From Hirundichthys speculiger (lineage: Eukaryota; Chordata; Actinopteri; Beloniformes; Exocoetidae): a stretch of 64,000 nt of DNA. Within the stretch, counting starts at the first letter, position 1. Each line of letters starts with the position of its first letter. The notes beneath the pieces were generated by a model, which did no database searches, had not been told where the DNA came from, and saw only the letters and a list, made by a program, of their open reading frames with translations. The DNA lies in the NCBI GenBank assembly GCA_018398805.1, contig JAGFBZ010000557.1:28726-92725 (forward strand). The letters are read 5' to 3'. Shown piece by piece: positions 8,398-54,739 of the stretch. Both the position numbers and the translations under genes were made by a program.

Positions 8398-8401
8398 CTA
8401 G

Positions 8402-9191: not shown

Positions 9192-9914
9192 AGATATGAC
9201 GCCGGGACTGCGCCGCTGTTTCTTTTTTTTTTTTTTTCTGGTACTGTAAGTAGGCCTCTGGTTGTTAAGCTACTGGGAGCATTAGCCGTTTGGCAGCTCG
9301 AGCTAATGAAGCTAATTTTACTTATTGACTTCTACTAACCACGTTATTATACGCTCCCTTACATGCGCCGTTGAACTTACTCTTCTGACTATATTGCATG
9401 TTTTGACTTGCTATTAAGTGTCTGGGATGCTGTCTTCCTGAAGGGTATTTTGAGTTTAATTTCTGTGTTTTAAAGGATTACCTGGGCTTACTTGGTACAT
9501 ACAGCCCTTTTTTTAAGTTGGTTCTTTTTGTACTTCATATTTTATGTATTTCGTTGCACTGTGACTCATACAATTTGGAGCAGGAGTTAGGTCACGTTTG
9601 ACGAGTGACAGTTCAGTTATAGGTAGACTAATAGACAAGTGTTTCAGGTTAAAGTTAGGCATCTCATTGGGAAGATGTTGTGGGTGGGCTCCAAGGGGTT
9701 CTGGGTAGGGGTGTGTTCTTGCTGTACTGCTTTTTTGTTTTTTATTTTATTTTATTATTATTATTTATTTATTTTATTTTTTTTTAATCTCCCTCCTTTT
9801 CTCTCTTTTAACTCACTCAAGCCCTCCAAATGTGTACCTCATGCCTACGCCCAGACTGGCTTCTACAAACTCAGTCTTATCATGTATTACTCTCATTACT
9901 TTACATTTACCTGA
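9192..9914 (+). other. Long spacer between L1 ORF1 and ORF2
   Basis: Non-coding, T-rich in parts (9222-9237; 9731-9784). Consistent with an inter-ORF spacer of an L1-like LINE; no other feature seen. Confidence 0.5.
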
Positions 9915-13670: not shown

Positions 13671-13673
13671 GGG

Positions 13674-15140
13674 GTGAGCTGAACAGGGGTTTGAAGATCC
13701 TGGTGAAGGTGGGGGTGAGCTGGTGGCCAGGGAGGTGCTGAAGATCCTGGTGAAGGTGGGGGGAGCTGGTGGGCCAGGGAGGTGCTGAAGATCCTGGTGA
13801 AGGTGGGGGTGAGCTGGTGGGCCAGGGAGGTGCTGAAGATCCTGGTGAAGGTGGGGGTGAGCTGGTGGAACAGGGAGGTGTTTGAAGATCCTGGTGAAGG
13901 TGGGGGTGAGCTGGTGGGCCAGGGAGTGTGTTGAAGATCCTGGTGAAGGTGGGGGTGAGCTGGTGGGCCAGGGGGGTGTTGAAGATCCTGGTGAAGGTGG
14001 GTGGGGGGTGAGCTGGTGGGCCAGGGGGTGTTGAAGATCCTGGTGAAGGTGGGGGTGAGCTGGTGGGCCAGGGAGGTGTTGAAGATCCCTGGTGAAGGTG
14101 GGGGTGAGCTGGTGGCCAGGGAGGTGTTGAAGATCCTGGTGAAGGTGGGGGTGAGCTGGTGGGCCAGGGAGGTGTTGAAGATCCTGGTGAAGGTGGGGGT
14201 GAGCTGGTGGGCCAGGGAGGTGTTGAAGATCCTGGTGAAGGTGGGGGTGAGCTGGTGGGCCAGGGAGGTGTTGAAGATCCTGGTGAAGGTGGGGGTGAGC
14301 TGGTGGAACAGGGAGGTGTTGAAGGTGAGGTGGTCCTGGTGATCCTGGTGAGTGGGGGTGAGCTGGTGGAACAGGGAGGTGTTGAAGATCCTGGTGAAGG
14401 TAGCTGGTGAACAGGGAGGTGTTGAAGATCCTGGTGAAGGTGGGGGTGAGCTGGTGGGCCAGGGAGGTGCTGAAGATCCTGGTGAAGGTGGGGGTGAGCT
14501 GGTGGAACAGGGAGGTGTTGAAGATCCTGGTGAAGGTGGGGGTGAGCTGGTGGGCCAGGGGGGTGTTGAAGATCCTGGTGAAGGTGGGGGTGAGCTGGTG
14601 GGCCAGGGAGGTGTTGAAGATCCTGGTGAAGGTGGGGGTGAGCTGGTGGAAACAGGGAGGTGTTTGAAGATCCTGGTGAAGGTGGGGGTGAGCTGGTGGG
14701 CCAGGGAGGTGTTGAAGATCCTGGTGAAGGTGGGGGTGAGCTGGTGGGCCAGGGAGGTGTTTGAAGATCCTGGTGAAGGTGGGGGGGAGCTGGTGGGCCA
14801 GGGAGGTGTTGAAGATCCTGGTGAAGGTGGGGGTGAGCTGGTGGGCCAGGGAGGTGTTGAAGATCCTGGTGAAGGTGGGGGTGAGCTGGTGTGGCCAGGG
14901 GGTGTTGAAGATCCTGGTGAAGGTGGGGGGGAGCTGGTGGGCCAGGGAGGTGTTGAAGATCCTGGTGAAGGTGGGGGTGAGCTGGTGGAACAGGGAGGTG
15001 TTGAAGATCCTGGTGAAGGTGGGGGGTGAGCTGGTGGGCCAGGGGGGTGTTGAAGATCCTGGTGAAGGTGGGGGTGAGGGTGGGCCTGGTGGTGAGATCC
15101 TGGTCCAGGGAGGTGTTGGTGAAGGTGGGGGTGAGCTGGT
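13674..15140. repeat. 48-bp minisatellite (about 30 copies) inside a LINE
   Basis: Unit type GAAGATCCTGGTGAAGGTGG followed by GGGTGAGCTGGTGGGCCAGG and GAGGTGTT (48 bp), with GGAACAGGG variants and occasional one-base indels. On the minus strand it encodes HQLTPTFTRIFNTSLA repeated. This is the LINE ORF2 segment (normally single copy, TDIFNTSLA-like) between endonuclease and reverse transcriptase. The long reading frames on both strands here (617 codons minus, 225 plus) are consequences of the repeat. Confidence 0.95.
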
Positions 15141-16687
15141 GGGCGCTGCTTTAAGCACCTTTCCTGGAACTCCTGTCTGGGCCGGCAGCTTTCTTGGTGT
15201 TCACTGTCAGGAGCACCCGTCTGACATCATGCTCCTGTACAGTGAGTGGAGTGATGGAGGATCCTGGTGGGGGCGGGGCTGGGGGCGGGGCTGGGACAGC
15301 TGGGTGCTGCTGTACAGGTGGGACTCTATTCTTGTCCTGTGGTCTGCCTTGGCTTTCTTTATTCCTCTGTTCAGGTGAGCCCGAGCAGCTCTGTATAGAG
15401 CTCTGTCACCTGACCTGAAGGAGGCGTTGCGGGCCCTGAGGAGAGAGCGGACCTGGCTGGTCATCCAGGGTTTCTGGTTGGGGAAAACCCGGATGGTTTT
15501 GACTACAGTCACATTCCCAATGCAGAACTTGATGTAGTCCAGTACCGGGTCTGTGAAAGTATCCAGCCCCTGATGTTCAAATAAGTCCCAGTCAGTCCGG
15601 TGGAAGCAGTCCTGGAGTTCTGGAAGTGGTCGGGCCCGGTTGTGATTGTCCTTGTGGTGGGCCTGGTTCTTCGTCTGAGGGGGGTGTACGCTGGGGAGAG
15701 CAGGAGGGAAAGATGGTCTGATTGTCCGAGGTGAGGGAGGGGTGTGGATCTGTATGCTAGCTTAATGTTGGCGTAGACGTGATCCAGAGTGTTCTCTCCC
15801 CTGGTGGAGCATTTAACATGCTGGTAGAATTTCGGCAGTACAGTCTTTAGATTGGCCTTATTTTAGTCTCCTGCAATAATGTGAACACCATGTGGGCCCG
15901 CTGATGTTCGTTGATGGTGTTCTGCAGGACGGAGAGCGCTGTGTTTACGTTAGCATGGCGGGATGTAAACAGCCGTGATGATCACTACAGTGAGCTCTCT
16001 CGGTAGAAAAAAAGGCCGACATCTTACAGACATGTACTCTGGGGAGCAGTGTTGATCAATGATTGTCCCGTTGTTACACCAGTTATCATGTACGAAGACG
16101 CAGAGACCCCCTCCTTTACTCTTACTGGAGTTTGCAGTCCTGTCCCAGCGTAGCAAAGTGCGGCCTGCTAGCTGTAGGCTAGCATCGGGGATTTCTGGGC
16201 GAAGCCAGGTCTCAGTGATGATCGTCACACAACAGTCACGAACATAGCGGTTTCCAGCGAGTTGTAATTCCAGCTCGTCCGTTTTATGTACCAGGGATCT
16301 GGCGTTGGAAAGAAACAGGCTCGGTAGAGGTGGCTTGTGTGGCCGTTTCCTTAGCCGTAGCATAACGTTGGACCGGCAGCCCCGCTTCTGCTTCCTCTCT
16401 CGTCTCCATCTGCGCCGCCTCCTCAACCCGAAAACAATCCACGGAGAGCCCGGCGTTTTCGCTATGTCATCAGGGATCACGTGTGTGTGGTGGAAGTCAC
16501 TTGAGATCGGTATTTTCTTGATAGATCCGATGTCCAAAAGTACTTGGCGGATGTACTGGATGTTTGCAGTACTGATGGTCCATGTTAGGGCAAGAAGTAG
16601 GAAGAAATAAAACAAAAAAGAGCACTGGAGTGGAGAGCCGTGTGCTGCTGCGTCCGTGCGCGCCGCCATCTTGGCCATCTTGGCCAA
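15141..16687 (-). pseudogene. L2/CR1-type LINE ORF2, endonuclease half
   Basis: Minus strand from about 16,687: KPPLPSLFLSNARSLVHKTDEL, ITETWLRPEIPDASLQLAGR, GGGLCVFVHDNWCNN and VVIITAVYIPPC are the APE-type endonuclease motifs of the fish L2/CR1-type LINE also present at 4996-6384. Frame breaks follow. At 15,512-15,207 comes KTIRVFPNQKPWMTSQVRSLLRARNA, the linker before the reverse transcriptase. The 48-bp minisatellite then replaces the next part, and no reverse transcriptase core remains. The 5' end carries two CCAAGATGG motifs on the minus strand (16,664-16,685), the YY1-like promoter type. Confidence 0.85.
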
Positions 16688-18060
16688 TCAGGTGCACTAT
16701 TTTCAGCCACGGTCAGCCGGTCACTCCCTGTCTCTCCCTGGATGAAAAATCAAAGTTCCTCAGATTTTCCGCAAACTTTGCACACTGAAAAGTATCCGAG
16801 GTCTGATGCTAACTCTGAGTTTTCAGCCTCCAGGACCTCACCGTTCCTGAGATACGGGCCGCAGAGCAGGTGCTCCTCTCAGGTAAGTGTGTTTTTGGCC
16901 AAACTTTCAGAGTGCTCCAATCCTAACCAAACTGAATATGATTAAAGTACCCCTAATGCACATGATTATACCTGAATATGGGCCCCCAAACAGCTCAGGC
17001 CCCTGAGTTATGGCCCCCCCAAAGGCACTGTACACTGTACACGAACTGGCACTGAGCTGTAATTTTAGTGTGTCAGTCCGTGTGCTCCTGTGTAAACGAA
17101 CTTATCTCTTTCTGTTTTCAGTTTTGCATAGGAAGTGTACAGCTTTGAAAGTGGTTTTCAAGGTGTATCTCAGCCATAAGAGGTCTGATTACCACCAAAC
17201 TCATACTGTATGTTCAGCCCAGGAAGAGGTTTAAAATAAAACAAGGCTGACTCTTCTAGACCCTTAATGGACCAAGTAGGTCCAGAGCTGTCGGAGGCCA
17301 ATGAGACACATATCTCCGAGCTCAGGGTGATCTGGAGGTCTCACTGTACTAGTTTGGTGCAGAAACTCCTTTGGAAAGTGCCTCAAATAACCTTAATTGC
17401 CTAGAAGCTGGGAATGGGCATTTCTGACATGGCAAGCAATTAACATTGGGTTTTGCAGGTTAATTGCCAAAAGAATAATTTTTTCCCAAATCTCATATTT
17501 CAGACTTGAGACCGCTGGGGGGTCCTCTTCCATCCTTATGAGTCTCAAAAGTATCAACGGACGGTGGTTTTGGCTAGTTTCTGCTAACTCACCGAGTTGA
17601 AAAACAAAGTGTCACCTCCCTGTGACAATGGCAAGCATTTGCATTGCCGCCAGCCTTAATGCTTGTCATTGCAATTTTGATGTGAGGAAATGTACTCAAC
17701 TGTACGCAGATTTATCTCTTTCTGTTTTAGGTTTTGCATAGCAAGTGAACTTACAGTTGCTATGCAAAACCTATAATGACAGGAGCAGTGTAAGTACACT
17801 TCCTATGCAAAACTGAAAATGGGAGAGATGATTCTGCATACACAGCCGTACATTTTCTCACATGTCAAAATTACAGCCAGTTTGTGTACACCCTTTAAAC
17901 GGCTGAATCTTAGCCAAATGAGGTCCAATTATCACCAAACTCAAACGGTTTCTTCAGCCCAGGCAGAGGGCTCCACCACCCCGAGCTTGACTCTAAACAC
18001 TTCCTGACCGAACAACTGCATGCTCAGAGTTTCCAGGGCATCCCACTGTACTAGTCTGGT
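16688..18060 (+). repeat. Dispersed repeat, copy 1 (inverted copy at 52,978-54,660)
   Basis: Non-coding. It shares with the reverse complement of 52,978-54,660 an ordered series of blocks: GGATGAAAAATCAAAGTTCC (about 16,739), CAGCCTCCAGGA...CACCGTTCCTGAGATAC (about 16,826), GCTCAGGCCCCTGAGTTATGG (about 16,993), TTTTGCATAGGAAGTGTAC (17,125) and CTTATGAGTCTCAAAAGTATC (about 17,535). The motif TTTTGCATAG(C/G)AAGTG recurs in both orientations. One instance (17,730-17,774) is a hairpin with 16-base perfect arms around a 12-base loop. The family is unknown to me. Confidence 0.75.
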
Positions 18061-24989: not shown

Positions 24990-25055
24990 AGCCCTGGGTT
25001 AGGGTTAGGGGTTAGGGGTTAGGGTTAGAGGTTAGGGTTAGGGGTTAAGGGAAGG
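24990..25055 (+). repeat. Short telomere-like (TTAGGG/TTAGGGG) array
   Basis: About nine units of TTAGGG and variants GTTAGGGG and GTTAGAGG, the same type as the larger array at 25,925-26,795. Confidence 0.9.
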
Positions 25056-25924: not shown

Positions 25925-26795
25925 ATTGAGGGTGGGGTTGGGGGATAGGATGGGGTTAGAGGGTTGGGGTTGGGGTTAGGGTTAGGGTTAGGGGTTAGGG
26001 GTTAGGGTGGTTAGGGGTTAGGGTTAGGGGGTTAGAGGTTAGGGGTTAGGGTTAGGGTAGGGGGTTAGAGGTTAGGGGTTTAGGTTAGGGGTTAGGTTAG
26101 GGTTAGGGGTTAGAGGTTAGGGGTTAGGGAGGGTTTAGGGGTTAGGGTTAGTTAGGGTTAGGGTTAGGGGGGTTAGGGTGGGTTAGGGGTTAGGGGTAGG
26201 GGGTTAGGGGTCGGTTAGGGTTAGGGTTAGGTTAGGGGTTAGGTTTAGGGGGTTTAGGGGTTAGGTTAGGGGGGTTAAGGGGTTAGGGGTTGGGGTTAGG
26301 TTAGAGGGGGTTCGGGTTAGAGTTAGGGTTTAGGGTTAGGGGTTAGGGTTAGGGGTTAGGGTTAGGGGGGTTAGGTTTAGATGTTAGGGTTAGGATTAGG
26401 GATAGGGTTAGGGGTTAGGGTTAGGGGTTAGGGTTAGGGGTTAGGTTTAGATGTTAGGGTTAGAGATTAGGGATAGGGTTAGGGGTTAGGGGTTAAGGGT
26501 TAGGGGTTACGGTTAGAGGTTAGGGTTAGGGGTTAGGGTTAGGGGTTAGGGGTTAGGGTTAGGGGTTAGGGGTTAGGGTTAGGGGTTAGGGTTAGATGTT
26601 AGGGTTAGAGATTAGGGATAGGGTTAGGGGTCAGGGTTAGGGTTAGGGGTTAAGGGTTAGGGGTTACGGTTAGAGGTTAGGGTTAGGGGTTAGAGTTAGG
26701 GGTTAGGGGTTAGGGTTAGGGGTTAGGGTTAGAGGTTAGGGTTAGGAGGTTAGGGGTTAGAGGTTAGGGTTAGGGGGTTAGGGGTTAAGGGTTAG
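25925..26795 (+). repeat. Interstitial telomere-like array, degenerate
   Basis: About 870 bases of TTAGGG, TTAGGGG, TTAGAGG and related units. Within it are higher-order repeats; for example GATGTTAGGGTTAGAGATTA recurs near 26,450 and 26,594. It ends about 130 bases before the acceptor of the signal-peptide exon of the C80/RTX gene. Confidence 0.95.
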
Positions 26796-26924
26796 GAGCT
26801 CATCTCTCAGTTTGTCTCCAGAGCCTCCAGTTGTGTGGAAGCTCTGCTGGGGATCAGGGCTGATCTCTGACTTCAGATGGTGCAGGAAGAGTTTCATTTC
26901 TCCTGGTTGTGTCTCTGTGTTCAG

Positions 26925-27016
26925 GAACTGTGCACCGATGGTGGGACGGAGGCAGAGATGGAGGACCCTGCAGCTCCTGATCCTCTTCAGCCTCCTCGGC
27001 CTCTCCAAAGAGTTCG
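26925..27016 (+). CDS. Exon with signal peptide of the C80/RTX gene
   Basis: Acceptor CTCTGTGTTCAG at 26,913-26,924, then 13 untranslated bases, ATG at 26,938, and donor G|GTAAGAG after 27,016 (phase 1). The 26 codons give a basic start (GRRQRWR) and a hydrophobic core (LQLLILFSLLGL), a textbook secretion signal. The acceptor implies a further upstream non-coding exon; the best candidate ends at 20,043. Confidence 0.75.
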
Positions 27017-30000
27017 GTAAGAGACTTTCTGGAGAAGAAGATCATCATGAAAAGTCTTCAGTTGGTAGACGGTCACATGAAAAGGAGTAGTGAGGGAGGG
27101 GGATCTGTGTGGATGCTTTTAGTTTCACCAGAAAGGTTAAATCATTTTCTAATGATCTGATTTCCAGTGAAAGTGTTTCTCCAGGGTCTTGAGCAAATTT
27201 CCAGAAAGAGGAAGCAACAAGAGTTAAATCGTGTTTTCTTCATTGCAGAAGTGAAAGAAGATGAGTGGGAGGAGCTCAGAGCTGACATCACAGCCCTGCA
27301 TCACCTCAGAGGACTGTCTGAACACATGTCTCATGAAAGCATCAGTAACCCTCCAGAAACCTCCAGGTACCTGACAACGACACAAAACTCCTCAGCTGTT
27401 CAGAGTCCAGACGGCGATGTGAAAAAAACCCTGAAAGGACTTGTTTTCTGCTTTCATTTACCAACAAAATGTGATCAACTATCATCTGAGTCACAGTAAC
27501 AGTCAGCTGAGAACTCAGACTGGTATCATTTCTGTCTTTACTGAACATAGTTCACACATCCATTAAACATTTACAGAGCTGCAGGAAAAAGTAAGTGAAC
27601 CCACAGACTAATAGTTAATGAAAATGAGTTTGTAGGTGTGGTTTTGAGGGACCTTGATTGATGAAATACTCTGAAGTCTGCTGTTTATTAGTATCTCATG
27701 ACCTGAACCATGTGTAGCTAAAAAAAAAAAGACCCTTTGTCATGTTCTGCAGCTGGTTGAGGAGTTTCAAAATCACAAAAGGGTTTATTCACAAAAACAA
27801 TATCCAAAAATCCAAAACACGAAAACCCAAAGACACCAGAAATCGAAAAAACACTAAAATGCAAAATACAAACTTAACATTCCGGGAGAAAGACGAGAGG
27901 GGAAACAGCAGAACAGCAACATGCCATGAAGACTTAATGGAGCCACAGAGAACAGGGGAAAATGACAAGACTTAAATACACAGAGGAACAAACGAGGGGC
28001 AGGTGCAGGGAATCAAGGTAACAAGAGGGAGGAAACAAAGCAGAACACAATGAAGACAAGACAGACCTTTCAAAGTAAAACAGGAACCACTGAAGACAAG
28101 GAGAGACGCCAACTTGACACAGACATACACACACAGGGCTGCCATGGCGACCAGGCCATGACATCTCTAAAGATGTTCTACCAAGAGTAGTTGATCAGAA
28201 GTCTGGAGAGACAAACAGAGTCATCTCAGAGAGATTATCATCCATCAGTCCAGTTGGACAAACTGTCTAGAGATAGAGACAGTTTAGTTCTGTAGCTTCT
28301 CTTCCTGGACGTGGACGTTCAGCCAAGATGACTCCAAAGATACGAGGTTTAAGCCTCAATGAGGTCGAGAAGAACCCATGAGGAACAGCTAAAGGCTATG
28401 AAATATCTTCTTCTTCCCTTCAGAGGTCACTACTTTAAACCATCTGCTTCTATCTAACCCTGTCCAGGTCATCAAATATCATCAAAATATGTAAACGTTA
28501 ATCATAATAATTTCACTGATATTGATCTAATTTAACACTGGTGTACTCTTTTATCTGGTGTCAAGAAGAGACTGAAAGAAAAGACCAATTAGAGAGTTAA
28601 ATACACAAGATTGATATAAGGTTTATTATGCCATGCAGAATATTTAATTGGCCGATGGTACAACGTTCTCATCACCACAGAGGTTTTTAAGGACAAATGC
28701 ATACAGAATGTTGAAGTGTCTCCCTTTTTATAGCTCTAAAAGGGAGGGTCTTGTATTCCTCTGCACAATTCTCCTTTATCTCAAAATCCCGGTGGCCTGC
28801 AGCTTACAAGTCTTACAGGATTTGTGTTGACATTCATCACAGTCCAAGAGTAAAGACAATAAAACAGCTGTGTTTCTCTGTGGAAGTCACAAACTTTTTG
28901 AGGTCAGGAGGTCCTGGTGTAAACACGAACTTGCCCCTTAGGTCATAAGACCAGCAGAAAATTTGGATGACAGAATGTTGACACTGAGCATTCCTGAGGA
29001 CCATAAAAGTTTAGTCCTTAACCAGTTGATGTGCACTAAACTTTTGAACTAATTCTGAAATCCTAACAATATCTTGGAGAGATTTGGGCCCCAATCATAC
29101 ACCTCCTGCTAGCCGCTATCCGCAAATTGCGGGGTTAGGAACCTCCGCTAACCGCTAATGCAGTCTTCCGCTTCCCTAAAGCCGCAACCCATTATATCGA
29201 CTCCCTTACTCACATTGTAGGTGTGGCAATGGGCGTGTCTTTTGCCCTTTCCACAAACTCAGTATCTTGCGATTGCGGGTTGCGGATAGCGGGTGGTCAG
29301 ACCACCTGCTACCCTCTACCTGCAACCCGCAACCCGCATGTCGGTGCGTAAAACAGCGCGTCTAAATGGTATCAATGTGCGTCCACCTGGTCACATGTGG
29401 ACGTGCACAAACTGCTCTACCTCTTGAATACACATCACCGTATTACTTGCATACGTTTTTATTCTTTTGAGGTCAGAGGATGTCTGGTCAGCAGTTGTGG
29501 TGGATGTGGGAATAGTCACGGCCAGACACGCCAGTCTGTACAGCTGTGGCATGATCTCATTCAGATGTCTACTGTGGAGGAAACCAAGGAGATCTTTGGG
29601 ACATTTCCCTCCAAAGTCCGTCATGGCCGACATCACAGTCACTTATGTTTTTAAACAGGTCAGATCATCAAATAGAACTCTGTGGCTCTGGTGTCAAGCT
29701 GGAAAAGGTTGGATGAGGGAATTTATTTCTGATATGTCTGAAACTGCTGGTGGTCGAGGAGGGACAGGAACATTATTGTTCGTGATCTTTAAATCGGTTC
29801 TGTAACTGGCAGATAAGGTGGTCCAAAACACTGTTGTGGAGTTTATTGTATGGTGTGCATATCCCTGCTGCATATCTGCCAGATCTGCTAAAGTTAAATT
29901 AGCTAAATTAAGGGATAGCGGGTAGTGGGAGGGGCGGTCCTCCTCTTCCTTCCTCCTCCTCCTCTGCACTGATATATACATATAAATATTTTTACACAGA

Positions 30001-33000
30001 CAATTCCTATCAGCTACCTGAAAGTCCTAGATTGTTGTTGTCCTCCCAGTAAACACGCTCTGGTCGTCTATGGTTTAACTGGCGAGCAAGCCGTTTAAGA
30101 CGATCTCTGCTATTTTCTGAGGGGTTCAACTGAGGCCAAATCACGCTTTTTATACAAGAGTTAATTCAAGAAGTAGAGCAGTTTGTGCACGACCACATGT
30201 GACCAGGTGGACGCGCTCTTGTACGCACCGACATGAGGGTTGCAGGTGCGCTGACCACCCATTACCCACCACCCGCTACCCTCTACCCGCAACCCGCGAT
30301 CGCAGGATACAGAGATTGAGGAAAGGGCAAAAGACACGCCCATTGCCACACCTACAAAGTGAGTAAGGGAGTTAGCATAAAAGGTAGCAGCTTTAGGGAG
30401 CGGAAGATTTCATTAGTGGTTAGCGGAGGTTCCTAAACCTGCAATTTACGGGTAGCTGCTAGTGTTAACGGGGAAGGGTACAATCGGGCCTTAGTCTGTT
30501 AATGTTCAGACATCATTGTTACACATGTCATTGATATAGGATCCTGGACCTAAATAAATGTTGGGACATTGCTGCAGGTTATTGAAATGTTGCTGCAGAG
30601 TGTAATCAAGCTGAACATGGTCCAGAAAGTTAGTATGTCTCTGCTGTTTTTGACCAGACAGTGACGTAAACAGGACGTTATTGACTAGATTTGTCTCTTT
30701 GGGAAAAAAATGTAAGTGTTGTTTTCAGTAGAAAACAGCCTGGATTTACTCAGGAAGAGACCACCAGTAAATATTTCCAGAAGCTTTGACAGATGCAGCG
30801 CTTTGACTTCAAGATCTGTTATTTGACTTTGACTCTCAATTTTATTTCCTTTAGTGGGAAAAACAACATCCAGTCAAGAATCAAAAGATCAGTTTCCAGG
30901 TAAAACTCATTCATGTGCAATTTTCATTTGTTTGCCAAAGATCAAGAACCATCAACAGACTGAGCACTGGTGGTTCAACTGAAGGACAGAAACAAAACCA
31001 ACAGGAATGCTAAAACACAAACATGCCGGAATTTAAAAAAGAAAATGATTTGACTCATCTTTCTTTTAAGTCCTGAAAACCAAACATTCACATTTATTCC
31101 CCAATTAAAAAAAACAGGACAAGGCAGTTTATTTGTATCGCACATTTTAAACAGACTGATCCTGAACACGAGGCAACAGTGGAGAGAAAAACACCTGGTT
31201 AACAGGGAGAACCAGGTTCTTTACTCAGACAAAGAGGAGATTCAAAATGCATTAGCATTAAGATTAAAAGAAATAATGAAGTTAAAAGGAACAGTGTGGG
31301 TCCAGTCCTGGTCCTGGAACCCTGAACCAGCTCTACGTCCTCACCAGGATCCTGGAGGGAGACTGGGAGTCAGTCATGAGCTTGTTTCTGTACCATTAAA
31401 TGTTATTTTTCCACCAGGTTGGACATGGACCTGAACATACTGGGTCTGCTGGATGAACTCCAGAAGTGTTCCAGCTTCCCAGACTGTGTCTTCCAAAAGG
31501 AGCAGGTTAGTAAATGTTTGATAAAAAGAAAAGAAGAACCAAGAATGACATCATACTTTACAAATACATAGACTGATAAACTGGGAACTTTGTTTTGCAT
31601 TTAAACTATTATTCTCAACATGTGTTAGAATTGTCCCTTTCACTAACCATGTTTCTGTTTTGTCACAAAACTTGACCGATATTTAAAAATGTTGATAAAA
31701 CTGTGAAATAACTGTTTCGATTAAAGTGTTTGATATAAAACAGTTCTTCCAAGAATAATGGATGGATGAATGTCCAGAATCTCTTTAATTCAGTTAGATT
31801 CAAGAACATTTTACTGATCCTCAAAGGAAAATTAATAGTTGCAGCAACTGTCATGATCTAAGACTCTTCAATGATTGTAGAAGGTTCCAGATAAGTTCAG
31901 GAAAGATCTCCTGTATTATTGCAGCAGATCTGTAGACACTCTGTTGCTGAATAACTGTTGTTTAGACCAGCGGTTCTCAACCGGTCCGGCTTCAGGACCC
32001 ACCATCACCCTTAATGAAAAGCCGCGACCCAAATCAAGGAAGATTTCCAACTTTTAAAATTTACTGAATGAAAAGATCGTGCAGTTTGAATCAGAGATAG
32101 TAGAATAGAATATCACAGAATGCCAACACCAAAAAAATTAGTTTATTGGTGAACCAAGACAGCAAAAACTATAATGGCATAACCAAAATGACTTCAAGTG
32201 GGAAATATTCCCTTTGATGCTCAATTAGCTGCATTTTAATTAAATCCAAAACACTTCACTTCAGCCTTTTTTAAGACTTAACATGAACAAACATTAAATG
32301 AAAAGTGCAACCACTGAGCAGTAGTTTCAAAACTAACTCAAATATGTAGAATTTGCTGAGTACCCACTTCCTGAATATAAAACAGTTTCCTATTAAAACT
32401 ATCTAGTCACTTATTTAAGCATTAATCATAAAGCTGACATAACAATCAGAACATTTCAGTAACAGCCATTTTTAAGACTCAACAGTGCTTTTATGCACAA
32501 ACATGAAATAAAACAGTGCAACCACTGAGCCAGTAGTTTCAAAAGAACTCAAAATATATAGTTTTATCTGAATAACCATCACTGACCTTTGTCTTCAAGA
32601 TAAGAAAATCCATATCTCATATATTCTTGGTTGTATCTGTGTTTCACCTGCTCAACATACGTAAACAAACTTTACAGGTCTTTTTCTATGGTGTGAACTG
32701 GCGGGTGTCAAAACGCATTACAGGACATTATCGCCATCTGCTGTTAAGGAGTATGAATGACACTTTTTTTTTTTTTTGTTTTTTGTTTTAGCATTTCCTT
32801 CCCCATGCAAAGGGCACGACCCACTTTTGGGTCGCGACCCACTTTTGGGTCGCGACCCACCAGTTGAGAACCACTGGTTTCGAGGATGTTCAGGGTTGTC
32901 CATGATGTTCTTCATTTGATGAAGTTTCTTACTTTCCTCCATTAGCTTCAAACAGAGCCAGACCTCCTTATCTGATGTTAATTGTCCGTTATTAACGGTC

Positions 33001-36000
33001 TACCAGCGACCAAATGCCTAATTAGACTCAGACTGGTGTAACTACTCTCATTGACTTGAATGGTGGTGAATCTGGTCCGGTGTCACCGTTCCACAGGTGT
33101 TCCAGGTTCTGTTAGACTCTGAAATCCTCCAGCTGAGCTGCTGCCTCCTGACCAGGAGAGGCAGCTGCTACAGAGAAGACAATCAGACTCCTTTTGGTTT
33201 GTCATGTGACCTGGAGAATTTAAAAAAAAGGGCTCCTGTCACAGTTTTATGAACTATTTTATTGCCAGAAGAATCATCTCATAAAAACATATTTGCTGTT
33301 TCTGGAGGTTTTTGAGAAACTGATTTGTTTCCAAGTCAAAATAATTGGGACGACTGTGTTAGAAAGGGCATCAGACATAAAACCAACACCGAATCAATAA
33401 CCAGAGGGATAATTATCAGGTGATATGAAACAACAAACGAGACTGACTTTGGAGCTCTGCATCCTCTAATGATCCTCTAATGTTGTGCTTTATTTGACAG
33501 GATTTTGCCGCCTCTTAGCACATATTGAGGAACAAAAGATGGATGACTGGTTGCTGACAGCTTCAGAGATCTCCCACAGCTACAGCCAGAAACTTCTGGT
33601 CATGACTGACAAAGAAAGCTCAACGAATGACAGAGTCCAACAGGAGTACAGCATGGATCCCCGTTACTCAGAGATAGTCAGGGAGGAATGCCTCTTTAAT
33701 CAGTCCTGTGTGCCAGAAGTGGACGGCTACACTGTAGTGAAAATATTTGGAAGTGTTTCAGACGATGGACAGACTGTTTCTGGCCTCTCTGGCTCATCAC
33801 TTGCAAATCTGATGCTGAAAACATCTCTGGGATCAGCAGCGGTGATCTCTCTGGATGGAAACACAACCAGACAGTTTCAACACAACTTCATTAGAGTTCT
33901 CATGCAGCGTGGCCTCAGAGCAGTCTTAGACCAGCCAGGAGAACCAGCAGATTTACCAGGTCATGGATCAGCCTGACTCCGTCTCCATGTACCAGGTTCC
34001 ACAAAGACCCGTTGACCACTCCACACAGTACGACCACCAGCAGATCCTCCTGTTAGAGGATGACATAAAGATCAGAAACGCTGCAACTTTCCTTTATGAG
34101 AAGCATCCAGGAATTTCCTCAGTGTATGTTCTTGATCACAACCTAAAACCAAAACTGATTGGAGGTAAAGACGTACCTCTTTCAGAAAACTCCAGGCTGT
34201 ACCTGGTGGGTCATGGAGCAGCAGATAGTTCAGGAGAGATGAGAGTAGCCAAGTTCACAGCCCAAGATCTGGTCAAAATCATTCAAAGCACCTCCAGAGT
34301 CAGTGATAAAATCAAAACTGTTAGTATAGTGGGCTGTGATGCTGGAGCAGATAAAGCGTTCGTAGAATCTCTGACGAAGGGGGTCCATCAAGCTGGAATT
34401 GAGACAGAGCTGCACCTGAGGAACACCTTGGTGCAGGTTATGCACAATGGACGGAAAATCACTCAAGAAATCACTCCTGATGGGGAGCGCTGGATGCATA
34501 AAGATGACAGCAAGAAGGTGGTGTCAACTGTTGATAAGAATGGAGATGTAATCATCAGAAATGAACCTGGCAGTAGAGGACGGGAGGTTTTCACCAATGA
34601 AAGAAACTACCTGGGTGGTGGTAAGAACAAAAATAGTAATGATGAGGCCAACAGTTCCGAAAAAAGACCATCAAAAAATCAAAAAAAGCAGGCGCAGGAC
34701 TCCAAAAGTAGCTGGCCAGAAGAACCACGGACATTTCTTGACCCAGAGATTTGTAAGAAAGTTGACCAAAATAAACCTGAGCAAATAAAACATGCCTGTG
34801 AAGAACTTGAAAGTCTGACTTGGGGAATATTTCACTCAGAACAAGAACTCCCCAACAAAGTCAATATAGAAAACCTGCAGAATGAACATTATTTATTAGG
34901 AGAAAGACAAGACAATAGTATCAGGTGGATAAATGAAAGACAAGATGATGGTTTAAATGAAGAGCAGAGACTAAGACGAGTCCTGCAAAACTGTTATGAA
35001 ATTAAATCAGGAAAAGATGTCAGAAGCATTATTCGTCACTTCGCAAAAATTGTAGAAAACCGGCCCACGTACCTGATGATAAACGACTGGATCTACTATG
35101 TAGATCCTAAAAAGCTCTATGTTCATCCAGCAGGTAAAAGGCTCGACAATAATGACAACATGGAAAAATGGAGAGAATTGATCAATCTACAGAATGAAAA
35201 AGGAAAAGAAAGCTACACAAACATAAGAAACAATATTAAAAGAAGAGGAAACTATGCTGATTATGTGAGATACATTTTTAATAGAGAAACTGGATTTCCC
35301 TCAGATCCAATATCTACGTTCTGGTTCAACTGGTATTTCACTGCATCAGTCATATCAGAATCTGCCAGAAATTTCCGGACGTTCCCTTTGACTCTGATGG
35401 CTCTTAAAATGACTGAATATGATAATAACAACAACATCAGAGAAATAGGAAAGAGCTTCTTGTTTGAGAAACATTCAATGGCCAGAGGAGGAAGCTGGAT
35501 TAACCCAAACAGGAGAGGATTCGCTGGCTCAGCAGCACCTGAAGATCCCAGTAATGAGGAAGCTTATAAAAAGCTCATAGAATTGGAATATGAAATGTTC
35601 ACAAAATGGAAGAACACTTACAACATAGAAAAAGATAATATAGTGGATAACATGGCTATATTATTAGAAGATTACAAGATATCTGCAGATACTTCACGTA
35701 TGAAAGAAGACTACAGGACTTTCAAGGAGACAGTACATGACAACATTATAACAACTCCTGGAGGTGAAGGAAGACCTTCAACATCTGGAGCTCTGGGAGG
35801 TAACGATGATGGCTACGTAACCACAAGAGACTTGACTTCAGCCACAGAATTAGAGAATACCTTCAAACATGAGTCACACTTCTTAGGGACATCTGCATCA
35901 TTGTCTGAGGAGGTCCACGCTCAGCTAAAGGCAAAATATGGAGAAGCTCTGGAAGGACTGCACCTTCAGGAGGGAACAGCCAGGATAGAAAATGGACAGT

Positions 36001-37592
36001 TTGTCTGTCAGCTTGTGTCTGAAGGTGCTGATCATCAGCCTGTTGAGTTCAGAGTTGAGTTATCACAAGAAAGAAAACTGTTCTGTGGCCTAGAAGGTAA
36101 AGTGATGATGATGGATGAAGCTGATTCAGTGAAAGAAATGTTCGGCTCTGCAGGTTTTGATGTCATGGTTGGGAACAAGAACGAGAACGTGATGGATCCG
36201 TACACTGGAGGTGGGCTGATGTTTGGAGGTGAAGGAAAAGACTCTTACATAATTAAACGTGGATATGGAAACAGCTTATTGATTGATAACTTTGCGGAGG
36301 ATAACAGTACTGATACAGTGCTGGTTGACATGGACTTCCTCGATGGCAGTCAAGTGGTTCTGACCTCATCAGAGAAGGATCTGCATGTCTTCATCACCAC
36401 CAAAGAGGAAGAGCTGAAGCTCAGTCTGCTCGGCTACAATGATGGTGACCAACATCAGCACCTGGAGTTTCAGACCACTGATGGGGTCCGGTTCAAACTG
36501 AAAAACCTGAACTCAGCTGGAGGTGTTCCCCTCTTTCAGACTGAAGCCTTCAAAGTGACTCTGAAACAGTCGCAGGTGGACTGCCGTTTGGACCTCAGCG
36601 CCTTCAGAAACCTGTCAAAGGTCCACACAGTCCAAGGCTGCCCCTCCCAGTCCAACGACATATTAGGCAACATTCAAGACAACGCTTTAATCGGTGGCTG
36701 GAAGGACGACATCCTGGAGGGAGGAGAAGGAGACGACACGCTGATAGGAGGACATGGAGACGACATCCTGGCTGGTGGGACAGGAGACGACACTCTCTAT
36801 GGAGAGGAAGGAAACGACACACTGCTGGGAGACTCTGGCAGGGACATCTTCATTCCCGGTCCAGGCGCTGACCAGGTGGACGGAGGTTCTGGCAGAGACA
36901 CTGTTCTGTACCGGGGCGACCACAAGAAGCATGAAGGGGTTTATGTAAACCTGCTGAGTGGACAAGGTCGCTATGGAGACGCTGAGGGGGACGTGTTGAA
37001 GGACGTGGAGACCGTGATCGGCTCCGTCTACTCTGACATCCTGGTATCCGGATACGAAAGTTCTCTTCTCAAAGGCTCAGATGGAAACGACCTGCTGGTG
37101 TCCACAGGTGACGACTACCTGGTTGGAGGTGATGGAAACGACGTCTACATGTTGGCTTTCAACAGCGGCTCAACTACCATTGACAACTGTGCAAAGGACA
37201 ACGCCACGGACATTTTACACTTGAACCCGTTGTCCTCACCATTATTTGACTGTCAGTTCTTATCCGACCGGGTCGTCCTGACGTTCTATGGATCTGATCA
37301 AACTACTGTGAAGGTTGGACTGAGAGGCTGGGTCAGAGACCATCATGAATGTGGTCATTTGGTGGTGGTTTTCAGAGAGGTAGTGGTCCCAGTGGACAGA
37401 CTCCTGCAGGAGTGTAAACTTAGACTGAAGGAGTCTGTTTGGTCCTCAGTTATAGTCTCTGTCATCTGCATCGGTCTTGTTCTTTTTCACTGTATTTTTG
37501 TTTTACAATTCTCTATCAAATCCATTAGAGAGACACGACAGAAGAAGAGACGAGCTGAATCAGATGTTGCAGCAGAGTCTGTTTCCCTCTGA
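26938..37592 (+). CDS. C80 cysteine peptidase / RTX repeat type I membrane protein, six coding exons
   Basis: Coding exons by splice signals and matching phase: 26938-27016, 27249-27366, 30855-30899, 31418-31505, 33097-33196 and 33501-37592. In order the protein has a signal peptide, a short region with RIKR (furin-type), a Cys-containing unknown region, a C80-family cysteine peptidase, a ~500-residue unknown middle, RTX nonapeptides in three patches, one transmembrane helix and a basic tail. C80 peptidases and RTX beta-rolls are known from large bacterial secreted toxins, where C80 self-cleaves after binding inositol hexakisphosphate and RTX repeats fold on calcium. Their union in a spliced vertebrate gene is unusual and suggests horizontal acquisition. 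The large exon breaks frame once between 33,930 and 33,974, so this allele may be a pseudogene or carry a sequence error. Length about 1,500 residues. Its function in fish is unknown to me. Confidence 0.8.
27249..27366 (+). CDS. Coding exon 2 of the C80/RTX gene
   Basis: Acceptor CTTCATTGCAG, donor CAG|GTACCT; phase 1 in, phase 2 out. Encodes an acidic helix-like segment beginning EVKEDEWEELRADITALHHL. No domain recognised. Confidence 0.7.
27738..28163 (-). mobile_element. Possible solo LTR in intron 2
   Basis: Bounded TGTCATG...CATGACA. On the minus strand AATAAACCC (complement of GGGTTTATT near 27,780) could be its polyadenylation signal. No clear target duplication and no partner LTR, so the call is tentative. 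Confidence 0.4.
28542..29068 (-). mobile_element. Solo ERV LTR in intron 2, same family as 59,770-60,199
   Basis: Shares with 59,770-60,199 the blocks TTTATCTGGTG, TTATTATGC(C/T)ATGCAGAATAT, GGC(C/T)GATGGTACA and a TCCTAACA right edge. Read on the minus strand it begins TGTTAGGATT and carries AATAAA (complement of TTTATT at 28,621-28,626). No internal retroviral sequence remains. It lies within intron 2 in antisense orientation to the gene. Confidence 0.6.
29086..30494 (-). mobile_element. hAT-related element with ~330-bp terminal inverted repeats
   Basis: The left arm 29,086-29,430 and the reverse complement of 30,160-30,494 match over about 330 bp. Shared blocks include AGGTGTGGCAATGGGCGTGT, CATGTCGGTGCGTA, CACCTGGTCACATGTGG and TGCACAAACTGCTCTAC. 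Between them, minus-strand 29,642-29,391 encodes LYRLACLAVTIPTSTTTADQ followed by LKRIKTYASNT, the C-terminal dimerisation motif of hAT transposases. Most of the transposase is gone and the frame overlaps the left arm. No convincing 8-bp target duplication could be read. Confidence 0.7.
30855..30899 (+). CDS. Coding exon 3 of the C80/RTX gene, furin-type site
   Basis: Acceptor TTTATTTCCTTTAG, donor CAG|GTAAAA; phase 2 in and out. A 45-base exon encoding GKNNIQSRIKRSVS. RIKR fits the R-X-K/R-R furin consensus and would separate the first ~70 residues as a propeptide. Confidence 0.65.
31090..31260. mobile_element. LINE/SINE 3'-end scrap
   Basis: GGCAGTTTATTTGTATCGCA and CATTTTAAACAG match the common fish retroposon 3' end (GGCAGTTTATTTGTATAGCAC type). 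Partial, in intron 3. Confidence 0.5.
31418..31505 (+). CDS. Coding exon 4 of the C80/RTX gene
   Basis: Acceptor TTATTTTTCCACCAG, donor CAG|GTTAGT; phase 2 in, phase 0 out. Encodes LDMDLNILGLLDELQKCSSF and then PDCVFQKEQ, a leucine-rich helix with two cysteines. No known domain. Confidence 0.65.
31968..32876. mobile_element. Non-autonomous hAT element (909 bp) in intron 4
   Basis: The termini CAGCGGTTCTCAACC (left) and CAGTGGTTCTCAAC (reverse complement of the right end) are inverted. The 8-bp flanks GTTTAGAC and GTTTCGAG agree at 6 of 8. Near the right end TTTTGGGTCGCGACCCAC is duplicated. No transposase. Confidence 0.75.
33097..33196 (+). CDS. Coding exon 5 of the C80/RTX gene
   Basis: Acceptor CACCGTTCCACAG, donor TTTTG|GTTTGT (weaker); phase 0 in, phase 1 out. 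Encodes VFQVLLDSEILQLSCCLLTR and then RGSCYREDNQTPF. Three cysteines suggest disulphides in an extracellular protein. Confidence 0.6.
33501..33959 (+). CDS. Start of large exon 6: unknown region before the frameshift
   Basis: Acceptor TTTATTTGACAG; continues the phase of exon 5 (GGA TTT TGC...). Encodes about 143 residues up to the frame break, including MDDWLLTASEISHSYSQKLL and IVREECLFNQSC. No recognised domain. In this frame a TGA comes at 33,974; the frame holding the peptidase is closed by TAG at 33,927. The shift must therefore lie between 33,930 and 33,974 and fits one extra base or two missing ones. Confidence 0.65.
33963..37592 (+). CDS. Main 1,209-codon frame of exon 6: C80 peptidase, RTX repeats, TM
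   Basis: Numbering from Met at 33,963. Residues about 20-215: C80 peptidase. 215-300: Lys/Asn/Glu-rich linker. 300-640: helical, unrecognised, with many Trp and Tyr (for example STFWFNWYFTASVISESARN). 640-900: beta-rich, ending in an RTX-like GGEGKDSY...IDNFAED unit. 911-982: eight RTX nonapeptides. 1038-1065: further RTX units. 1161-1183: transmembrane helix. 1184-1209: basic cytosolic tail. Intronless over 3.6 kb, unlike the five small exons before it, as expected of a captured bacterial gene. The Met at 33,963 is merely the first after the frame break; if the break is real, a downstream product starting here would lack a signal peptide. Confidence 0.85.
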   Translation: MDQPDSVSMYQVPQRPVDHSTQYDHQQILLLEDDIKIRNAATFLYEKHPGISSVYVLDHNLKPKLIGGKDVPLSENSRLYLVGHGAADSSGEMRVAKFTAQDLVKIIQSTSRVSDKIKTVSIVGCDAGADKAFVESLTKGVHQAGIETELHLRNTLVQVMHNGRKITQEITPDGERWMHKDDSKKVVSTVDKNGDVIIRNEPGSRGREVFTNERNYLGGGKNKNSNDEANSSEKRPSKNQKKQAQDSKSSWPEEPRTFLDPEICKKVDQNKPEQIKHACEELESLTWGIFHSEQELPNKVNIENLQNEHYLLGERQDNSIRWINERQDDGLNEEQRLRRVLQNCYEIKSGKDVRSIIRHFAKIVENRPTYLMINDWIYYVDPKKLYVHPAGKRLDNNDNMEKWRELINLQNEKGKESYTNIRNNIKRRGNYADYVRYIFNRETGFPSDPISTFWFNWYFTASVISESARNFRTFPLTLMALKMTEYDNNNNIREIGKSFLFEKHSMARGGSWINPNRRGFAGSAAPEDPSNEEAYKKLIELEYEMFTKWKNTYNIEKDNIVDNMAILLEDYKISADTSRMKEDYRTFKETVHDNIITTPGGEGRPSTSGALGGNDDGYVTTRDLTSATELENTFKHESHFLGTSASLSEEVHAQLKAKYGEALEGLHLQEGTARIENGQFVCQLVSEGADHQPVEFRVELSQERKLFCGLEGKVMMMDEADSVKEMFGSAGFDVMVGNKNENVMDPYTGGGLMFGGEGKDSYIIKRGYGNSLLIDNFAEDNSTDTVLVDMDFLDGSQVVLTSSEKDLHVFITTKEEELKLSLLGYNDGDQHQHLEFQTTDGVRFKLKNLNSAGGVPLFQTEAFKVTLKQSQVDCRLDLSAFRNLSKVHTVQGCPSQSNDILGNIQDNALIGGWKDDILEGGEGDDTLIGGHGDDILAGGTGDDTLYGEEGNDTLLGDSGRDIFIPGPGADQVDGGSGRDTVLYRGDHKKHEGVYVNLLSGQGRYGDAEGDVLKDVETVIGSVYSDILVSGYESSLLKGSDGNDLLVSTGDDYLVGGDGNDVYMLAFNSGSTTIDNCAKDNATDILHLNPLSSPLFDCQFLSDRVVLTFYGSDQTTVKVGLRGWVRDHHECGHLVVVFREVVVPVDRLLQECKLRLKESVWSSVIVSVICIGLVLFHCIFVLQFSIKSIRETRQKKRRAESDVAAESVSL
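34023..34605 (+). other. C80-family cysteine peptidase domain
   Basis: About residues 20-215 of the main frame. The catalytic pair is visible: His84 in RLYLVGHGAADSS (codon 34,212-34,214) and Cys125 in VSIVGCDAGAD (codon 34,335-34,337). The spacing and the strand-turn contexts LVGHG and IVGC are those of C80 peptidases. Downstream Lys/Arg-rich strands (GRKITQ, KDDSKKVVSTV) lie where family members bind inositol hexakisphosphate. Both catalytic residues being intact argues for a working peptidase. Confidence 0.85.
36693..36908 (+). other. RTX (haemolysin-type) calcium-binding nonapeptide block
   Basis: Eight consecutive nonapeptides, residues 911-982: GGWKDDILE, GGEGDDTLI, GGHGDDILA, GGTGDDTLY, GEEGNDTLL, GDSGRDIFI, PGPGADQVD, GGSGRDTVL. 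Six keep the GGxGxDxLx pattern closely. Such blocks fold into parallel beta-rolls binding one calcium per turn. Two more units lie at 37,074-37,157 (GSDGNDLLV, GGDGNDVYM), and an RTX-like turn at about 36,207. Confidence 0.95.
37443..37511 (+). other. C-terminal transmembrane helix of the C80/RTX protein
   Basis: Residues 1161-1183 (SSVIVSVICIGLVLFHCIFV then LQF) are uninterrupted and hydrophobic. Immediately after come SIKSIRETRQKKRR, a positive-inside tail. With the N-terminal signal peptide this predicts a type I membrane protein with peptidase and RTX domains outside. Confidence 0.85.
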
Positions 37593-42950: not shown

Positions 42951-43570
42951 TTTTTAAGGAATGATTATCTGAATATGGACTCTGTTGGAAACAGCTGGTT
43001 CTGATGAACTGATCCGGTCCAAATGAAACTGAGTAGAACTGAGTTCTTCCATCGTTCTTTTGGGTCGTTTTCAGCTCCAACGTTCTTCTCCTGCTGCTGT
43101 TACTTCCCTTCAGATCTACTTTCATCTTCACTTGAATGTCATTTTTCTCTGAAATTAAACTTCCTCTCTTTTCTTTTGTTTTGTATCACCAGATATTTTT
43201 GGAAGGTTATATTCCTCTTTTTACCCAGAATGCTTCATTTCTTCCTGCTGGGTTAGATTGTATATTTTATGCCTCAAACTCTCTATAACCTTTAATTTTA
43301 GTTTGTATCTTATGTTGCTGCTTCAGATTCCTTAAATGTCAGATCTGTAAAGTTCTGGTCCGTGTTCATGAATCCGTTCAGGTCCTCAGATTTGTTGGTT
43401 GCATTTGTTGCATTGAAATAGAAATAATCTCTGTCAGATGTAGAGCTGGAATACTGCAGATGATGGTCATCACAGATCTCAGGTGGAGCGCACCTGAAGA
43501 CGTCCTGCTGATGGACAGATTCATGGACGGGACCGGAGAGGACAACCGAGCTCAGGGACAGCAGAGGCTG
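42951..43570. other. Intergenic, no gene recognised
   Basis: Short frames flow from this stretch into the adjacent repeats. No splice-bounded exon or domain could be supported. Confidence 0.4.
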
Positions 43571-45895
43571 CAGGGACATCAGAGACATCAGAGACATCAG
43601 AGACATCAAGGACATCAGGGACATCAGAGACATCAGGGACATCAGGGACATCAGGGACATCAGGGAGACATCAGAGACATCAGAGGCATCAAGGACATAA
43701 GGGACATCAGAGACACCAAGGACATCAGGGACATCAGGGACATCAGGGACATCAGGGACATCAGGGACATCTGGAACATCAGAGACATCAGGAACATCAG
43801 GGGCATCAGGGACATCTGGAACATCAGAGACATCAGAGACATCAGGGACATCAGGAACATCAGGGGCATCAGGGACATCTGGAACATCAGAGACATCAGA
43901 GACATCAGGGACATCAGAGACATCAGAGACATCAGGAACATCAGGAACATCAGGGGCATCAGGGACATCTGGAACATCAGAGACATCAGAGACATCACGG
44001 TCATCAGAGACATTAGAGACATCAGGAACATCAGGGGCATCAGAGACATCAGGGACATCAGAGACATCAGAGACATCAGGGACATCAGGAACATCAGGGA
44101 CACCAGGGACATCAGGAACATCAGGGACATCAGAGTCATCAGGGGCATCAGAGACATCAGGAACATCAGGGACATCAGAGTCATCAGGGACATCAGGAAC
44201 ATCAGGGACATCTGGAACATCAGAGACATCAGAGACACCAGGGACACCAGGAACATCAGGGACATCAGAGTCATCAGGGGCATCAGAGACATCAGGAACA
44301 TCAGGGACATCAGAGTCATCAGGGACATCAGGACATCAGGGACATCAGGAACATCAGGGACATCAGAGTCATCAGGGACATCTGGAACATCAGAGACATC
44401 AGAGACATCAGGAACATCAGGGGCATCAGAGTCATCAGGGACATCAGGGACATCAGGGACATCAGAAACATCAGGGACATCAGAGGCATCACAGACATCA
44501 GGGACATCTGGAACATCAGAGACATCAGAGACATCAGGGACATCAGGAACATCAGACATCAGAGACACCAGAGACATCAGGGACATCAGGAACATCAGGG
44601 ACATCAGGGACATCAGAGGCATCACAGACATCAGGGACATCAGGGACATCAGGGACATCAGGACATCAGGACATCAGACATCAGGGACATCAGGGACATC
44701 AGGGACATCAGGGACATCAGGGACATCAGGGACATCAGAGGCATCACAGACATCAGGGACATCAGGGACATCAGGACATCAGGGACATCAGGGACATCAG
44801 GGACATCAGGGACATCAGAGTCATCAGGGACATCAGGAACATCAGGGACATCAGGAACATCAGAGACATCAGAGACATCAGGGACATCAGGGACATCAGG
44901 AACATCAGGGACATCAGAGTCATCAGGGACATCAGAAGCATCAGGAACATCAGGGGCATCAGAGACATCAGGAACATCAGGGACATCAGAGACATCAGGA
45001 ACATCAGGGACATCAGGAACATCAGAGACATCAGAGACATCAGGGTCATCAGAGACATCAGGGTCATCAGGGACATCAGGGACATCAGGGACATCAGGGA
45101 CATCAGAGACATCAGGAACATCAGGGACATCAGGGACATCAGGAACATCAGGAACATCAGGGACATCAGGGACATCAGAGTCATCAGGAACATCAGGGAC
45201 ATCAGGGACATCAGGGTCATCAGGAACATCAGGGACATCAGGGACATCAGGAACATCAGGAACATCAGGGACATTTGATACATCAGTGACATCAGAAACA
45301 TCAGGGACATCAGAGACATCAGGGGGACATCAGAGACATCAGAGACATCAGAGACATCAAGGACATCAGAGACATCAGAGACATCAAGGACACCAGAAAC
45401 ATCAGGGACATCAGAAACATCAGGAACATCAGGGACATCAGGGACATCAGGAACATCAGGGACATCAGGGACATCAGGGACATCAGGGACATCAGAAACA
45501 TCAGGGACATCAGAGGACATCACAGACATCAGGGACATCAGAGACACCAGGGACATCAGGGACATCAGGGACACTAGGGACATCAGGGACATCAGGAACA
45601 TCAGTGACATCAGGAACATCAGGGACATCAGAGACACCAGGGACATCAGGGACATCAGGGACATCAGGGACATCAGGAACATCAGAGACATCAGGAACAT
45701 CAGGGACATCAGAGACACCAGGGACATCAGGGACATCAGGAACATCAGAGACATCAGGAACATCAGGGACATCAGGAACATCAGGGACATCTGGAACATC
45801 AGAGACATTAGAGACATCAGAGTCATCAGGGACATCAGAGACATCAGGGACATCAGAGACATCAGGGACATTAGAGACATCAGAGTCATCAGGGA
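43571..45895. repeat. 9-bp minisatellite (GGGACATCA)n, about 2.3 kb
   Basis: Around 255 copies of GGGACATCA with variants GAGACATCA, GGAACATCA, GAGTCATCA, GGGGCATCA and GGAACATCT. There are a few short deletions (GGACATCAGGACATCA near 44,660). Mild higher-order structure is visible: blocks such as TCTGGAACATCAGAGACATC recur. Because 9 is divisible by 3 and only one of six frames contains a stop, very long open frames appear on both strands. Confidence 0.97.
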
Positions 45896-46283
45896 CATCC
45901 AACATTTGTGGACAAAGAGGATGTCCTCTGTCCATCTTTGGTCCTTTCATCCAGACTGCTTTAGTGCCAGAAGGTCCCTCCAGTCCCCCGGTGGACAGTA
46001 AGACCATTACTGGTCCTCTCACCTCCTCACCACCACTAAAACCCTTTTGACGCTTCTTCCCTGAAGAAAACTCCTGTTCTCTGAAAACTGTCTCCACGAT
46101 TCAACATGAGTTTTATTTTTATCTGGTCCAGTTCCTTCCAGTCTGCATGCAAACGTTACTTCATCAGCTGAAAGGACAGTTTCTCTGTCCTTCAGATAAA
46201 ACTTCAGCTGCTTGTCATCAATGACCAGTTTAGACCTGATTAGTCATCATGGTCCTGCTGCTGAATCATGATGCCGTCTATGA
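45896..46283. other. Intergenic, no gene recognised
   Basis: Unique-looking sequence between the minisatellite and the MITE. A frame runs out of the array to 46,050 (plus) and another to 46,097 (minus), without known motifs. Confidence 0.4.
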
Positions 46284-54660: not shown

Positions 54661-54739
54661 AATCCCGGGTACTCTGTTGGGGAGGCCTGGTCCCCGCCCT
54701 GGAGGTATTGAAATGCTCCTCTCAGGCTTACACTTCAGT

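Follow-up and report, generated by a model that had tools for sequence, protein, structure and literature searches.

A Peptidase_C80 and RTX repeat gene in the genome of the fish Hirundichthys speculiger, with a probable degenerate C80-like domain directly upstream

Introduction

How does a vertebrate come to carry a gene built from modules that are known, for the most part, as components of giant bacterial toxins, and how much of the toxin machinery has it kept? This question is raised by a locus of Hirundichthys speculiger (Exocoetidae; assembly GCA_018398805.1, contig JAGFBZ010000557.1), of which positions 28,726 to 92,725 of the forward strand were analysed, a stretch of 64,000 nucleotides called the window here and used for all coordinates. 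An open reading frame (ORF) of 1,209 residues in this window combines a Peptidase_C80 domain with RTX calcium-binding repeats. Giant bacterial toxins use self-cleaving proteases of the C80 family as a switch for release, which is triggered by inositol hexakisphosphate (InsP6), a molecule of animal and plant cells. The gene is real and unusual, and its composition suggests that a vertebrate adopted toxin machinery long ago. A vertebrate gene with both the catalytic dyad and the trigger pocket kept would, if the reading is true, represent a rare adoption of a bacterial toxin processing enzyme, and it raises the question of an InsP6-responsive protease outside vertebrate cells. New here is what is probably a degenerate second C80-like domain directly upstream of the first and in another frame.

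A preliminary description of the locus, made from its letters, knew of no described vertebrate system of this kind. This has to be corrected, as the combination of C80 and RTX in a vertebrate is already in print, though uncharacterised: peptidase C80, Ca2+-binding and RTX (COG2931) domains were reported in one sentence for the nurse-shark plasma protein Seq34341 (PMC9207270). That study names homologues outside cartilaginous fishes, at a cut-off of 65% coverage and 50% identity, for four of its ten uncharacterised proteins; Seq34341 is not one of the four, and the passages that deal with it give neither function nor origin (PMC9207270). Like the window protein it is a vertebrate protein with, as reported, C80 and RTX domains, and the report suggests that such a protein is obtainable from blood (PMC9207270). 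No further vertebrate C80 protein was met in the literature searched, among titles and abstract starts of the matches listed. Other parts of toxin systems have been adopted by animals, namely HINT in hedgehog, ZU5 in PIDD and GHH in teneurin, and these proteins offer a comparable history, in which a toxin scaffold or a processing peptidase was taken over. The domains concerned are unrelated to those of the window protein, and the passage that lists them does not mention C80 (PMC3482391).

Results

The C80 domain of the main ORF

The main ORF extends from 33963 to 37592 on the plus strand, as a single frame of 1,209 residues as previously proposed, and its frame is free of stops from 33930 on. 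In 300 base shuffles of 33930-37592 the longest stop-free run reached 163 codons. Residues 22-167 (34026-34463, +) form a Peptidase_C80 domain (Pfam, E 7.7e-21; 75.4 bits against a curated cut-off of 23.8), which matches the cysteine protease domain (CPD) of MARTX toxins both by sequence and by fold. The dyad named in the preliminary description was confirmed: His84 in the motif VGHG (34212-34214, +) and Cys125 in the motif SIVGC (34335-34337, +) stand in columns that hold H and C, respectively, in 59 of 59 aligned bacterial rows, and the latter column is shared with C3727A of PDB entry 8yjc. A PDB sequence search with the C80 part returned MARTX protease domains, best at 1.9e-10 for the whole ORF and 1.8e-11 for the domain alone, and the C80 fold, on which the identification had been made to depend beforehand, is present in the predicted structure of the domain (an AlphaFold model helped by 19 bacterial C80 rows). 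Identity to the cysteine protease domain of TcdA/TcdB amounts to 14-18%, and no other clostridial-toxin domain was found in the ORF by Pfam.

Seven of the eight contact residues of the InsP6-binding basic pocket, with the numbers that we take these residues to have, are retained. The domain is about 70% diverged from bacterial domains, yet the dyad and these seven pocket residues survive, which argues for selection on activity. A second copy of the gene elsewhere in the window was not detected as a protein match at E 1.

RTX repeats, middle region and C-terminus

The RTX nonapeptide block comprises residues 901-981 (36663-36905, +). Its identity, likewise proposed before, is borne out by the Pfam family HemolysinCabind (E 1.2e-17; 63.9 bits against a cut-off of 23), by tandem units of the form GGxGxDxUx and by a PDB sequence search, in which the RTX part is matched best by CyaA (E 5.3e-49, five stretches); neither an adenylate cyclase nor a pore domain was found in the ORF by Pfam. 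The eight consecutive nonapeptides of the earlier account were about right: eight stand in register, starting at residues 901, 910, 919, 928, 937, 946, 955 and 973, and the unit at residue 964 is degenerate. Additional RTX turns occur around residues 728-760 and 1037-1065. Flanking the block are two RTX-like beta modules that are similar to one another (E 4e-7 when the two sequences are compared), module A at about residues 728-825 (36144-36437, +) and module B at about residues 1037-1125 (37071-37337, +). Module A also bears a weak resemblance to DUF3491 (E 0.0052), of which the ORF is not a member by score (15.1 bits against a curated cut-off of 25).

The middle region, residues 205-640 (34575-35882, +), belongs to no known family. 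Pfam gave no match for residues 201-700, tblastn no plasmid match for residues of about 200-690, and the 1,400 ORFs of the bacterial loci described below no match at E 0.1 for residues 201-640; with a profile of bacterial tails no homology to MARTX tails was found, and AlphaFold confidence in the region is low.

Near the C-terminus a putative transmembrane helix was called from hydropathy at residues of about 1162-1184 (37446-37514, +), where the maximum of 2.98 compares with at most 0.98 before residue 1130. It is followed by a basic C-terminal tail with seven K/R near the helix. According to the positive-inside rule the basic flank lies on the cytosolic side, so that the tail would be in the cytosol and C80 and RTX outside, where calcium is high.

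Genomic residence

The ratio of observed to expected CpG is 0.44 over the ORF and 0.29 over 33501-34560, and 0.39, 0.44 and 0.55 in three flanking stretches, as against 0.75-1.14 (median 0.96) in 63 bacterial loci of more than 5 kb, taken whole. The window is rich in tandem repeats and contains retrotransposon remains, namely integrase and aspartic-protease ORFs (3614-7593, -), a weak L1-like ORF with a reverse transcriptase (8193-12802, +) and a second integrase piece (54728-55198, -). From this CpG depletion and these surroundings it follows, in agreement with the preliminary description, that the gene is resident in an animal-type, CpG-depleted, retrotransposon-rich chromosome and is no contamination.

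Upstream exons and a second C80-like piece

Splice sites were scored with generic weights, and coding potential with a model trained on this very gene. Predicted exon 1 (26938-27016, +) holds a start codon and a hydrophobic, signal-peptide-like segment of 26 residues, judged by eye, and ends at the donor GTAAGA (score 2.4). Predicted exon 2 (27249-27366, +; acceptor 4.3, donor 1.0, coding-like at +10.1) is in phase with exon 1 and open in its one compatible frame. Candidate exon 3 (31418-31505, +) fits the phase of exon 2 and is the top internal candidate of 27367-33600 with a total of 15.8, its rival at 29472-29658 having identical phases and a total of 11.3. Candidate exon 4 (33097-33205, +) is weak (total 4.1, donor -0.3), being the best of 31506-33480 at loosened thresholds only, and its phase fits candidate exon 3 as well as the acceptor at 33501. 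Degenerate telomere-like GGGTTA repeats were observed at 24996-25051 and 25928-26796, the larger of the two arrays stopping some 140 bases short of the proposed start codon.

Behind the 33501 acceptor (score 3.8) lies a coding-like piece at 33501-33973 (+). Its own frame has coding log-odds of +17.1 and is free of stops, as against log-odds of -2.2 (10 stops) and +6.8 (6 stops) for the two others. Its frame is offset from that of the main ORF and ends in a stop at 33971-33973, so that two coding-like frames overlap over 33930-33973. No convincing intron joins the two: among GT-AG pairs of at least 50 bases in 33701-34040 whose length fits modulo 3, donors show at most five of nine consensus bases. 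The earlier statement that five small exons join by phase thus holds in part: the first two are in phase with each other, the next two are phase-compatible candidates, and the fifth is coding-like but out of frame. A phase-compatible bypass leads from 31505 to the acceptor before 33996 (score 2.6; phase worked out by hand), and with this join the signal peptide and the main ORF would share one frame, while both candidate exon 4 and the C80-like piece would be left out.

It is probable, on mixed evidence, that the piece at 33501-33973 codes for a second C80-like domain, degenerate and without the dyad. Aligned to the C80 alignment with hhalign, it scores 27.46 over 58 columns, a value reached by none of 150 shuffles (mean 13.2, maximum 25.84); the same piece reversed, and five segments taken from the main ORF, give 10.1-14.5. 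The order of strands and helices also resembles that of C80. On the other side, the HH probability is only 22.9%, a C80 profile search gave only 3.0 bits (E 0.0037 against one sequence), a plain Smith-Waterman score of 35 is non-significant (145 of 1,000 shuffles reach it), Pfam shows no C80 match up to E 1, and the single-sequence AlphaFold model (pLDDT, the per-residue confidence measure, 36) is too poor to use. Catalytic His and Cys are absent at the aligned positions.

Bacterial relatives

A scan of bacterial contigs with an alignment of three C80 domains retrieved 64 loci, all 64 gamma-proteobacterial by title; the scan patterns favour MARTX-like sequences, and the number is no census. 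An earlier scan with residues 1-719 and no C80 alignment gave 13 pattern matches and no relative, and viral contigs gave 1 and 56 pattern matches, again without a relative. Two phage records match in the RTX part only; the whole ORF matched 1,687 plasmid records, in the RTX half only among the matches listed (20); and the BFVD fold search returned nothing at E 0.001 or better.

No bacterial locus exceeds 38% identity over its best segment. A C80 ORF could be extracted from 61 of 66 bacterial loci, with a simple RTX motif behind C80 in 50 of the 61, and two of the eleven remaining ORFs are C80-only stretches. The motif lies 756-959 residues behind the C80 start in 49 of these ORFs (in one also at 485), as compared with 901-981 for the block of the window, the exception being locus L013 with motifs 1,394 residues and beyond from the C80 start. 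A profile of the 49 tails from C80 to the end matches residues 6-245 (E 1.8e-28, one-sequence search) and, past these, the window protein only weakly, at RTX.

With MARTX toxins (RtxA of Vibrio, Aeromonas, Photorhabdus, Xenorhabdus and Proteus) the window protein has in common the C80 fold, dyad and InsP6 pocket, and the order of C80 and C-terminal RTX at similar spacing. It differs in a C80 identity of about 33% at best over the domain, in that homology to the MARTX C-terminal arm was not found throughout, and in a signal-peptide-like exon and putative transmembrane helix where MARTX uses type I secretion. No long ORF with MARTX N-terminal repeats or effectors was seen upstream in the window, where the exon structure is tentative and small exons were not exhaustively searched.

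The C80 tree comprised 59 of the 66 bacterial loci. Five Xenorhabdus loci (L027, L032, L038, L043, L058), relatives in the contig scan, had no tblastn match at E 1, and the pieces of L064 and L065 were too short. The window C80 forms one very long branch of 4.32 changes per column, joined weakly (support 32/55) to a Thalassomonas protein, and does not fall inside the Vibrio/Aeromonas MARTX sequences, a grouping that had been named beforehand as support for transfer. This weak nearest neighbour is L013, with an ORF of 3,683 residues (6812-17860) in which C80 starts near residue 1044 and the RTX motifs follow some 1,400 residues later, a layout unlike that of the other extracted C80-RTX ORFs.

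Discussion

The reading preferred here, to which we give an even chance, is that of an old acquisition from bacteria, now a resident animal gene for an extracellular, calcium-stabilised, InsP6-triggered and self-cleaving protein. The abundance of C80 in bacteria suggests that the transfer went from bacterium to animal. A MARTX-type C80 module and RTX repeats would have been gained together, ultimately from bacteria, and long ago, as host-like CpG depletion and, seemingly, introns have since been acquired. The signal peptide of exon 1 would lead the protein into the secretory pathway, and the one C-terminal helix would anchor it with the short basic tail in the cytoplasm and C80, middle region and RTX facing outward (or in plasma, if shed), where the RTX blocks, folded by extracellular calcium, would form a rigid stalk of beta-roll type. 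Since the dyad and nearly all of the pocket are retained, C80 probably stays closed until InsP6 or a similar polyanion arrives from broken cells (or as dietary phytate), whereupon it would cleave itself at a leucine close by and free a fragment, in effect a shedding switch triggered by damage or infection. Computation shows the domains, dyad, fold, pocket residues, RTX repeats, hydrophobic helix and CpG depletion; from the residues retained it seems most likely that the whole is a self-cleaving switch, folded by calcium and facing outward, which InsP6 or a similar polyanion would open and which would then shed a fragment. The core of the preliminary description was right, and its details of exons and donor remain tentative.

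Several points weigh against this history and mechanism. InsP6 is mainly cytosolic, so that an outside-facing sensor of it is odd, and an extracellular trigger is the weakest part of the proposed mechanism. Pocket position K180 is soft, with K in 30 of 59 bacterial rows of that column, and about 435 middle residues match nothing searched. The RTX stretch is less depleted in CpG (0.64) than the remainder. The two scan patterns behind the bacterial set derive from three sequences, that of the window, one of Vibrio and one of Proteus, and closer bacterial relatives may escape them; the tree neither gives the C80 domain a firm place nor points to a donor. The candidate exon chain, finally, is inferred from splice scores and phase, and with a frame offset lacking a good intron the locus may be in partial decay, contain a sequencing error or be spliced in another way.

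Among the alternatives, a domesticated structural or signalling protein, in which the C80 fold and the RTX stalk serve binding or adhesion and proteolysis does not matter, is unlikely. Animal surface proteins such as teneurins set a precedent for toxin domains that have lost catalysis (PMC3482391), and the upstream piece, provided that it is a C80 copy, has already degenerated. The main copy, however, keeps the dyad and seven of eight pocket residues at about 70% divergence.

We attach the same modest weight to a decaying locus, where a once longer C80-C80-RTX gene had its frame broken between the C80 domains and the large ORF is the survivor. The frame offset, the stop at 33971-33973 with no good intron and surroundings rich in repeats and retrotransposons fit such a decay; 1,209 stop-free codons as against 163 at most in shuffles do not, nor does the phase-compatible skip from 31505 to 33996, and the offset could also be an assembly error or an allele. 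Possible sources of the offset between the two C80 domains are alternative splicing, decay, a +1 translational frameshift and an indel that belongs to the assembly or to one allele.

Improbable, by comparison, is the use of the self-cleaving protein as a secreted weapon against microbes or parasites, with C80 freeing a part inside an InsP6-holding target cell as in MARTX. The retained InsP6 pocket and the order of C80 and RTX at a spacing near that of bacterial tails would suit it. MARTX effectors, however, sit before C80, and the part upstream of C80 is short here; moreover, the putative transmembrane helix would tether the protein, and the middle region is of no known family. Bacterial contamination or a chimeric assembly is hardly credible: the relatives found are bacterial, from searches of bacterial, phage, viral and plasmid collections and PDB only, but CpG depletion matches the flanks, splice-compatible exons lie upstream, no bacterial locus comes closer than the identity given above, a putative transmembrane helix and basic tail are present, and a shark plasma protein with these domains has been reported (PMC9207270).

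If Seq34341 is related to the window protein, the family may be older than the divergence between sharks and bony fishes; independent transfers are also possible. It is a speculative and rather doubtful extension that jawed fishes share an old, bacterially derived plasma or surface family, with an InsP6-triggered C80 on a calcium-folded RTX stalk and in some members a dead sister C80 as partner, which would act as an extracellular InsP6 sensor, of cell damage or phytate, and shed a signal by autoproteolysis.

Other features of the window

Neither Rfam families (at gathering scores) nor tRNA genes were found in the window. An assembly gap of 102 N at 5724-5825 lies beside a 69-base tandem repeat, and a tandem array at 13691-15086, with about 29 copies of a 48-base unit, is located in a strongly G-rich stretch (GC skew 0.49 over 14001-16000). 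About 261 copies of the nine-base unit TCAGGGACA fill 43552-45899 and produce long open stretches in several frames on both strands.
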